This document shows positions 2,374-4,939 of a DNA stretch of 8,365 nucleotides, piece after piece. The translations under genes and the position numbers were made by a program. The notes under the pieces were generated by a model, which ran no database searches, was not told the origin of the DNA, and saw nothing but the letters and a program-made list of their open reading frames with translations. Numbering within the stretch: the stretch's first letter is position 1; every line of letters begins with the position of its first letter. This DNA comes from Candidatus Aerophobota bacterium (GTDB lineage: Bacteria > Aerophobota > Aerophobia > Aerophobales > B3-G15): positions 1 through 8,365 of the forward strand of contig JACUUP010000064.1 in assembly GCA_014859225.1 (NCBI GenBank), written 5' to 3'.

Positions 2374-4272
2374 CTAAAACATATCCGGGTTTAATCTTCT
2401 GAGCAAAAATTTTCTTCCCTCAAAATAGCTAACTTTTCTAATCTCAATTCCCTGATGCCCGGCACAGATAACTTTGTCTTTGCTATCTAAGAGGTTATTT
2501 GCATTGTCCTCATAAAAGAGTAAAAGATGGGAGGTGGGATGTGTAGTTATCATTAAATCCCCGAATTGAAGCTCTTTAAGAGAAGAGCCTATATGTATTA
2601 CAACCTCCTCTCCTTTTTCATTTAAGAACCTGTCGGTAAAATCCCGGAAAAAAGAACCATCCAGGTTGTAAAGTTCTACTCTCATTGGGAAAGGGTGCAA
2701 AACGGCTATTTTGCCCTCTCTTACATCTATATTCAGGATTTCTTCTTCCAGGTTTATTGTATTGACTATCTCACCTTTTTCATTGAATGTAAGAATTTTT
2801 CTATCATGAGTGGGGATGTAAAAAAGCTCCCCTTCTACAGATAAATAACCTGCAGGAGTCCAATCGCTATAAGCTCCCTCAAGAGAAATTGCCTTGAGCT
2901 TTTCTCCTTCTATGCTAAAGAGATAAATTGTATCCGACTCAAGAAGATAGATTTTCTTTTCTTTGACATTGCCTGTTTCAAAATCTTTCACATATATACC
3001 GCCTGGATTTATTTTCATTTTAAAAAGATACACTTCATCTTCCATGTAAATAGTTTTCTCCACCTCCGGGGTAAAAAGCTCTATTAAAGAGCTATTTTCT
3101 AACACCACTATTTTTGACTGGAAGTCTTTTTCCACTATGGCGTATATTTTTTCCTCCTCAGAAATAGCCATATCTATGAACTGAAATAAATCGTTTTTAA
3201 ACTCTTTCACAAGGTTAAGGTTCCCATCCCGTACCTCAATTTTTTGTGCAGCATGTATGTAGAATCTGCCCTGCTTGCTCCAGCTAATACCTCTTGGGAT
3301 AAAGTCTTTAAAAAAGCTGCGTTTGGTTAAAGTTAAAGTTGCATCGCTTAAGCGAATAGTGTACTTTCCCCGAGCCAGATTCTCAGCCGTTGTGTACTCA
3401 AGCTCTTCATTTCCCATGGCTCTAAGAGCTGAGATTAAGATGCTGGAGCATTCAATACCCACGGGATTATGAAAGTCTGACTGGTGAGAGGAGGGAGTTT
3501 TTCGCACTGCATCTTTGTATTCTGCACCCCAGAGCCAGGGAACCTTATTTAAGGCTTCAATATACCGTATGAGTTTATTCGGGTGATTGGAAAGACGAGA
3601 TATCCTGTGGACAGTATCCTTTATACCTCTATCATAATCTTCAGGTGATAGGCCACTTGGATGGGTAGAGTCGGGTTTTCCCCGAGAGGAGATAAGTTTC
3701 CCGTTTAATGTTAGCTCGGCTCGGAACCTAACTGTTCCTGCCTCTTTTTCTGCTCTCATGCTCCACCCTTTATCTTTTAGGGACATTTGCTCGTATTCAA
3801 TAATTTGCCAGCCTCTCCATGCACCGTATTCTCCTTCTTCTTCACTGAAAACATTTGAGTATTGCTCATAAGCACCTCTTGGACTTAAAGGAGCCATCCT
3901 GGGCATTACTTTGTACCAGGTTATGTTTAACTTTCCCCATAGATTTTCTTTCCATCTATCAAGCGAGCCTTCTTTGAGGGAATAGGTTTTATCGTTTATT
4001 TTAACCTCATCAGGAAAAAGACTGTCCTCATAGCCAAGATAATAAGTATCTTTAGATTTTAAGAGGGCATATAAGTTAATTTTCTCATCAAATTCAACTA
4101 TCTTGCTGGTATTTGTGGGAATGAAGCCTTCCCTGCCCGAGAGGATAATCACCTCTTCTACTGTCGGTAGCTTCCGGGAAGTGGCAGAAAAACTCGTATG
4201 GGGGGTAAAAAGGGATATAAAAAAGAAAAGGAGTAAAAGTAGGCTCAGGTTACTGCACTTAAGTAAGTTCAT
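2374..4272 (-). CDS. Secreted NlpC/P60-like protein interrupted by a beta-propeller-like insertion
   Basis: This is a 632-aa protein with a signal peptide (hydrophobic core 10-22, cleavage near SFS-A, 29-30), so it is probably exported. Residues 35-200 are beta-rich, perhaps a sandwich domain (contains AGTVRFRAEL at 178-187). Residues 240-305 look like the N-terminal half of an NlpC/P60 cysteine peptidase: PWLWGAEY (245-252), then GIECSSILISALRAMG (272-287), with Cys275 at the nucleophile position. Residues about 308-548 form repeated 'IYLF..EGEKLKAI' and 'FYIPTHDRKILTFNEKGEIV' strands, like five or six NHL/propeller blades. Residues 555-628 resume the peptidase pattern: LQFGDLMI (568-575), SHLLLFYED with candidate catalytic His582, and ICAGHQGIEI. 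The canonical motif order is kept. If active, it would cleave peptidoglycan peptides or a related amide. The motif reading is mine and unverified. The ribosome site upstream is weak. Confidence 0.72.
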   Translation of the reverse strand: MNLLKCSNLSLLLLLFFFISLFTPHTSFSATSRKLPTVEEVIILSGREGFIPTNTSKIVEFDEKINLYALLKSKDTYYLGYEDSLFPDEVKINDKTYSLKEGSLDRWKENLWGKLNITWYKVMPRMAPLSPRGAYEQYSNVFSEEEGEYGAWRGWQIIEYEQMSLKDKGWSMRAEKEAGTVRFRAELTLNGKLISSRGKPDSTHPSGLSPEDYDRGIKDTVHRISRLSNHPNKLIRYIEALNKVPWLWGAEYKDAVRKTPSSHQSDFHNPVGIECSSILISALRAMGNEELEYTTAENLARGKYTIRLSDATLTLTKRSFFKDFIPRGISWSKQGRFYIHAAQKIEVRDGNLNLVKEFKNDLFQFIDMAISEEEKIYAIVEKDFQSKIVVLENSSLIELFTPEVEKTIYMEDEVYLFKMKINPGGIYVKDFETGNVKEKKIYLLESDTIYLFSIEGEKLKAISLEGAYSDWTPAGYLSVEGELFYIPTHDRKILTFNEKGEIVNTINLEEEILNIDVREGKIAVLHPFPMRVELYNLDGSFFRDFTDRFLNEKGEEVVIHIGSSLKELQFGDLMITTHPTSHLLLFYEDNANNLLDSKDKVICAGHQGIEIRKVSYFEGRKFLLRRLNPDMF

Positions 4273-4402: not shown

Positions 4403-4939
4403 ATGGAATGGAAAGCATCGGGGATATCTTGCATTCAGGTGGGAGGAAGATATGTTCCACTTAAGACTCTATGGCTTAAAGACAGGTGGGGTCAGAAAAA
4501 GCGTTTCAGGGTAAAAACAGTTCTTGATTTAAGAAATAGTAAACATGGTTTTCTTCTCCCCTGGAGTCAGCTTGCCAGAGATGAAAAAGGCAGGATTGGG
4601 GCTTTAATAGTTGGCGCCCATCATTCGGGATGGTTAAGAATTGGTTCTTCCAGAAAGTTTTTGCCTTATTTATTTGTTTCTCTTGATGCTTTAGCCAGGA
4701 AAGTAAGAAAGAAACTTCTGGTTCCCCTTGATTATGAACTAATAGAGGAAGAGGATAGCATTCTGGCAAGAGAAAAAGAAATTTGTTCTTACTATATAGC
4801 AAGTAAACGGTCAAACTTGTTTCATGAGCCTGGTTGCTGGCAGGCAAAAAGAATAAAAGATAAATACAGGATAGTATTTAGAACCAGGAAAGAGGCTCTT
4901 AGCTCAGGATATATCCCTCATAAAATTTGCGGAGGATAA
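4403..4939 (+). CDS. Protein of unknown function with C-terminal Ada-like zinc-binding module
   Basis: This is a 178-aa protein with no signal peptide, so it is probably cytoplasmic. I do not recognise residues 1-125, a basic region that is rich in beta-forming residues at its start and includes WLKDRWGQKKRFRVK and GALIVGAHHSGW. Residues 131-176 resemble the metal-binding module of the Ada family: YIASKRSNLFHEPGC, then a hydrophobic RIVF strand, then KEALSSGYIPHKIC. Ada itself uses four Cys (CxxxC and PCxxC). Here the aligned positions are His141, Cys145, His173 and Cys176, a mixed His/Cys set still able to bind zinc. No methyltransferase domain is present, so this is not a DNA-repair Ada protein. 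No convincing ribosome site precedes the ATG at 4403, but the promoter fits and no better in-frame ATG exists. The stop overlaps the ribosome site region of the dehydrogenase gene, so the two are co-transcribed. Confidence 0.7.
   Translation: MEWKASGISCIQVGGRYVPLKTLWLKDRWGQKKRFRVKTVLDLRNSKHGFLLPWSQLARDEKGRIGALIVGAHHSGWLRIGSSRKFLPYLFVSLDALARKVRKKLLVPLDYELIEEEDSILAREKEICSYYIASKRSNLFHEPGCWQAKRIKDKYRIVFRTRKEALSSGYIPHKICGG
4931..4935 (+). promoter_or_regulatory. Ribosome binding site that fixes the dehydrogenase start
   Basis: GGAGG sits nine bases before the ATG at 4945, inside the last codons of the preceding gene. The TTG at 4927 would place this site within the coding sequence, so the ATG at 4945 is preferred. 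The arrangement suggests translational coupling. Confidence 0.8.

Follow-up and report, generated by a model that had tools for sequence, protein, structure and literature searches.

A divergent NlpC/P60-like protein of Aerophobota with a predicted beta-propeller nested between its catalytic halves

We describe a gene in an 8,365-nucleotide stretch of DNA from a Candidatus Aerophobota bacterium, of an uncultured phylum of deep sediments (contig JACUUP010000064.1 of assembly GCA_014859225.1; the whole stretch is called the window below). We read its product, with a probability of roughly 0.55, as a secreted and divergent cysteine hydrolase in which two halves of a catalytic domain would be rejoined around an inserted beta-propeller that would control the cleft. 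The propeller-split architecture is real and is absent from the families that we searched. The features of the gene, in window coordinates, are the following:

2374..4272, minus strand: the complete gene (632 aa), which runs from the signal peptide through the N-terminal beta domain, half 1 and the propeller to half 2; from the ORF, homologues and dN/dS
4183..4272, minus strand: probable Sec signal peptide (residues ~1-30), recognized by eye from a hydrophobic stretch with SFSA behind it; pLDDT low at 1-32
3607..4167, minus strand: N-terminal beta-rich domain, residues 36-222, from the alignment and model; common to the propeller-free homologue
3349..3606, minus strand: NlpC/P60-like half 1, residues 223-308 (PWLWG, ECSSILISALRAMG, YTTAENLARGKYT), matching NlpC columns 2-55
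3535..3537, minus strand: Trp246, in the place of the NlpC/P60 signature Tyr; Trp in 11/11 homologues, aligned with NlpC PY
3448..3450, minus strand: Cys275, predicted catalytic nucleophile, invariant (11/11), on NlpC DC
2635..3345, minus strand: inserted beta-propeller, residues ~310-546 (~235 residues), from the model, fold comparison and sequence
2377..2634, minus strand: NlpC/P60-like half 2, residues 547-632 (GD strand 1, His, R-R last strand), matching NlpC columns 60-119
2527..2529, minus strand: His582, predicted catalytic base, invariant in the 10 homologues that reach it
2476..2508, minus strand: acidic loop resembling an EF-hand, residues 589-599 (DNANNLLDSKD), within the hairpin of strands that follows His582
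2464..2466, minus strand: Cys603, at the position of the third catalytic residue; Cys, Tyr or Phe in the family, aligned on the third-residue His of NlpC, His in the propeller-free homologue
2455..2457, minus strand: His606, possible stand-in polar residue, invariant (10/10), three residues past the third position

The open reading frame lies exactly where the sequence-only reading had placed it (2374-4272, minus strand, 632 aa), and its conversion of residues into bases was correct for Cys275 (3448-3450), His582 (2527-2529) and residues 308-548 (2629-3351). Homologues, full-length or truncated by their contigs, were present in 11 of the 17 sampled Aerophobota genomes with the reading frame open in all 11, shared 39-56% identity and, in the alignment, carried the insert in every case. 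Three close pairs gave dN/dS values of 0.20-0.26, so we conclude that the protein is under purifying selection. Mean pairwise identity reached 63.6% and 50.1% in the two catalytic halves compared with 41.5% in the propeller. The signal peptide predicts that the protein is exported. The homologue records are titled Candidatus Aerophobetes MAGs, plus two titled Clostridia (L016 and L017), which appear to be the same as the Aerophobota genomes G010 and G009, so that these titles are probably wrong.

Scans of the whole protein with Pfam, NCBIfam and PADLOC gave no match, and the whole-length match to another family that we looked for as a result against the proposed architecture was found in neither Pfam nor NCBIfam. 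The N-terminal beta-rich domain (residues 36-222) had no Pfam match. Viral contigs searched with the A1 and A4 profiles of the family gave no hit, and neither did plasmids searched with the propeller-free homologue described below.

To compare the two halves with known enzymes we used hhalign to align pieces of the family alignment with a reference profile of 29 NlpC/P60 domains taken from genomes (121 columns), all of which aligned without an insert. Residues 225-308 and 540-630 joined together matched columns 2-119 of 121 with an E-value of 9.9e-11 and a score of 65.9, while residues 225-308 alone covered columns 2-55 (2.3e-7) and residues 540-630 alone covered columns 60-119 (3.4e-6). Because hhalign E-values refer to one comparison, it is the controls that carry the weight: the best score was 22.9 among 40 column-shuffled alignments and 16.1 among 40 other segment joins, and the reversed alignment scored 10.8. 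Placing the halves in swapped order brought no gain (41.8 vs 41.7 for half 1 alone), and neither the propeller (E 0.57) nor the N-terminal domain (0.27) matched the NlpC/P60 profile. In the alignment, E274-C275 falls on the NlpC DC, G571-D572 on GD and S581-H582 on SH, and the propeller enters between NlpC columns 55 and 60, with the segment that follows the catalytic helix on one side and the GD strand on the other. The GD of strand 1 is kept in 9 of 10 members (SG in the remaining one) and a basic pair stands at residues 625-626; passages of PMC10318531 name a GD on strand 1 together with a basic residue (Arg) on the last strand as a mark of cluster II. Profile similarity to the NlpC/P60 superfamily extends over the whole catalytic domain, with Cys preceding His.

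These matches bear out what had been proposed from the letters of the DNA. The motif blocks named there are present (ECSS 274-277, GDLMI 571-575, SHLLL 581-585 and ICAGH 602-606), and we do not consider them fortuitous, since E274-C275 is invariant in 11/11 homologues and H582 in 10/10 at 39-56% identity. The suggested profile searches gave the best score to the joined halves and showed the insert alone to be unlike NlpC/P60. The claim that a propeller separates the Cys half from the His half is supported independently by the complementary profile matches, the propeller fold and the existence of an insert-free homologue. Overall, the evidence supports a divergent domain of the NlpC/P60 superfamily whose helical and barrel halves have a propeller nested between them. 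We do not regard it as a canonical C40 member, since none of the 11 whole homologues reaches the gathering score of Pfam NlpC/P60 (PF00877) and the signature Tyr is replaced; one member with its halves joined matched PF00877 at E 0.0039. The joined-halves profile (A3) matched nothing among PDB sequences. When folded alone, the C-terminal half had a mean pLDDT of 71 and matched nothing in Foldseek at an E-value below 1.7; its VIA matches to HRASLS/LRAT (Z 3.2-3.8), MepS (Z 2.3-2.5) and the ComA peptidase were all weak and were given no weight, since ribosomal and Sm proteins score alike.

The region between the halves had been described as a propeller-like insert of about 250 residues (308-548), and structure prediction turned this into a confidently modelled propeller; the insert is conserved across the family. 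AlphaFold2 gave pLDDT values mostly around 90 for residues 310-560, and the closest fold was that of the glutaminyl cyclase 3nol (Z 18.9, rmsd 2.5, 189 of 234 residues aligned). Glutaminyl cyclases 3nol, 3mbr and 2iwa spanned Z 18.2-18.9, and the TRIM3 NHL domain followed at Z 16.7. Fold comparison and DSSP strands showed the radial four-stranded sheets of a beta-propeller, and the model suggests that there are five blades; 3nol-type glutaminyl cyclases are, we take it, five-bladed as well. At the sequence level, the propeller profile matched the Brat NHL domain (~0.0008), and propellers of single members matched several Pfam propeller families weakly. None of seven propellers had a Pfam match to the cyclase family and we therefore claim no cyclase activity for the insert.

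We then considered whether the domain works as an enzyme. AlphaFold2 confidence is low at residues 245-275, and for this reason it is from homology that we infer one assembled Cys275-His582 active site. The WG motif is separated from the predicted catalytic Cys by a family-specific loop of ~17 residues (residues ~249-274, 3451-3528), poorly predicted, in which Pro260 and Gln264 are invariant. According to passages of PMC3142127, the fourth signature residue of NlpC/P60 is a Tyr that precedes the Cys by twelve residues (Tyr226 in YkfC) and is thought to touch the P1 carbonyl; all 11 homologues lack it and have Trp246 instead. This change and the Cys, Tyr or Phe at the third catalytic position would fit a pseudo-enzyme, in which the NlpC/P60-like fold is a binding platform and the propeller the working module; DUF1175, of the same cluster, is indeed described as inactive and peptidoglycan-binding in passages of PMC10318531. 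However, the predicted nucleophile and base are retained without exception among homologues of 39-56% identity, the catalytic halves are better conserved than the propeller, and passages of PMC3142127 report LRAT mutants that suggest that the third residue is dispensable. Moreover, Tse1 is active through a Cys-His dyad with a Cys at the third position, and one of its homologues has a Trp there (PMC3391265). We thus consider a pseudo-enzyme unlikely. Hydrolase activity is likely but uncertain, given that, per the authors of the Tse1 study, the dyad suffices in that enzyme.

The acidic loop that follows His582 has the canonical 12-residue form D-x-N-x-N-G-x-L-D-x-x-D in L005-L011 (with G changed to Q in two of them) and in the propeller-free homologue (L040, 1435-2475), and it is one residue short in the window member, L003 and L004, which form their own subgroup. 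By analogy with the EF-hand-like calcium switch of the LysGH15 CHAP domain (PMC4022735), its location near His582 suggests that activity may be calcium-dependent.

The genomes of the phylum bear on the substrate. Mur ligases occur in 17/17 Aerophobota genomes, so peptidoglycan is probably made in these bacteria. PF00877 was found in none of the 17, the source genome included, and CHAP in one; the split protein is the nearest to an NlpC/P60 enzyme found in Aerophobota. The gene stands alone in the window, between a plus-strand phosphofructokinase gene that ends at 2371 and a divergent gene behind its start (4403-4939). The convergent stop codons of the phosphofructokinase gene (2371) and the split NlpC/P60-like gene (2374) are two bases apart (2369-2376). 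The divergent ORF (178 aa) has no Pfam match and, by eye, its C-terminal YYIASKRSNLFHEPGCWQAKRI has an Ada-type metal-binding look. Genes adjoining the homologues in L018, L020 and L021 are not common between genomes, and gene context hence offers nothing in favour of a role at the wall.

This missing wall-gene neighbourhood would suit an active enzyme with a substrate other than peptidoglycan (a protein, an N-acylated amino acid or another polymer) bound by the propeller. So would the replacement of the signature Tyr, the presumed contact of the P1 carbonyl, and the range of the superfamily, which according to passages of PMC10318531 includes lipid amidases, deSUMOylases and transglutaminases. 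Nevertheless, the universal Mur ligases and the lack of any canonical NlpC/P60 in the 17 genomes leave a niche for a wall endopeptidase, and export is predicted from the sequence; we judge a non-peptidoglycan substrate improbable, to about the same degree as a pseudo-enzyme.

The search for homologues without the insertion, which the sequence-only reading had proposed, returned one, in another phylum. This uninterrupted match outside Aerophobota (genome G101, locus L040) was found with the joined profile at E 4.6e-5. Its ORF of 346 aa has the N-terminal domain and half 1 in common with the family (A1 profile, hhalign 1.3e-9) and aligns on through half 2 with DCADVL, GDF, QHIGALY, then DENKNGVLDEDD and then IIHAG. 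It has no propeller, and the stretch before its GD strand (INEG...VNLKWG) is like the Aerophobota sequence that follows the propeller, from which we locate the two junctions at about residues 309 and 546. No second propeller-free case appeared among ~386 genomes, apparently of many families, and two further phyla, sampled with 1 and 2 genomes, had no propeller-free relative. Of two weak matches of the A4 profile in other genomes, one was to an RNase R-like protein and the other to a giant protein of repeats, neither of them related to the family.

Given this distant propeller-free relative, the propeller looks like a lid or sensor added to a known enzyme type, and the sequences suggest that it was gained in Aerophobota. 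The opposite course, an ancestral propeller that was lost in the G101 lineage, draws on the fact that with a single propeller-free relative the direction follows from outgroup logic alone; against it, all ordinary NlpC/P60 domains, represented by 29 genome sequences, lack the insert, and we consider such a loss very unlikely. Finally, a chance or convergent likeness, in which the two blocks would belong to different folds around a propeller, could appeal to the absence of a Pfam match for the whole proteins, of a convincing structural match for half 2 alone and of any PDB sequence found by the joined-halves profile, but it is strongly disfavoured by co-linear, complementary profile matches far above each control and by the existence of the uninterrupted homologue.

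Under our preferred reading of a secreted, split cysteine hydrolase, the papain-like domain would be interrupted after its catalytic helix and resumed after the propeller, so that both halves would form one site with Cys275 and His582. The propeller would project at the helix-to-barrel junction, beside the cleft, which it would cap or flank and thereby decide which substrates enter; the bond cleaved would most likely be an amide in peptidoglycan, a related envelope polymer or a peptide. The EF-hand-like loop beside the His could add a calcium switch. The role first suggested for the propeller, a gate or a recognizer of a wall polymer, is a plausible inference by analogy: Tsi1 occludes the active site of Tse1 (PMC3391265) and a propeller gates substrate entry in prolyl oligopeptidase (POP; PMC12325989). 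These precedents, together with LysGH15, are analogies and not tests. As a tentative extension, which we regard as somewhat unlikely, the Aerophobota, which probably make peptidoglycan and whose sampled genomes gave no canonical NlpC/P60 enzyme, might use a single self-regulated split wall hydrolase that combines a nested propeller, as gate or sensor, with a calcium switch.

In a partial search of the literature we found no report of a propeller inside an NlpC/P60 domain, and passages of PMC10318531, PMC3142127, PMC7159879 and PMC3482391 describe none. Wall hydrolases need restraint, the mechanism of which is known for few and usually involves a separate protein or domain. If the role proposed here is true, a large domain nested between the catalytic halves would offer direct physical control. 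The family also shows how a split member can escape domain searches, as Pfam is blind to it, and nature supplies the comparison on which the role of the propeller can be tested, in that this type of enzyme occurs both with a propeller and without one.

When compared with known systems, the split protein is closest to the canonical NlpC/P60 enzymes (C40, PF00877; Spr/MepS, YkfC), with which it shares the order of motifs (P-W/Y-x-x-G, the (D/E)C helix, GD, SH, I-x-A and a basic last strand) and a profile match over 116 columns. It differs from them in the propeller that separates the helix half from the barrel half, the Trp in place of the signature Tyr, the Cys, Tyr or Phe at the third position, the EF-like loop after the His and the extra loop of ~17 residues before the Cys, and it lies below Pfam detection. 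The Pseudomonas effector-immunity pair Tse1/Tsi1 also joins an NlpC/P60-type enzyme with Cys at the third position to a partial propeller over the active site (PMC3391265), but there the propeller is incomplete and a protein of its own, whereas in Aerophobota it is a complete domain inside the peptidase. Prolyl oligopeptidase and DPP IV are likewise peptidases in which a propeller cap regulates substrate access (PMC12325989), although they are unrelated serine alpha/beta-hydrolases and the propeller of prolyl oligopeptidase is seven-bladed. The LysGH15 CHAP domain has an EF-hand-like calcium switch beside a papain-like amidase active site (PMC4022735), to which the candidate calcium loop of the split protein may correspond; the LysGH15 loop precedes the Cys, while the loop in Aerophobota comes after the His and ahead of the next strand. 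As for the insert itself, it shares its predicted fold with the glutaminyl cyclases (3nol, 3mbr and 2iwa) and NHL domains, but only 9-14% identity.
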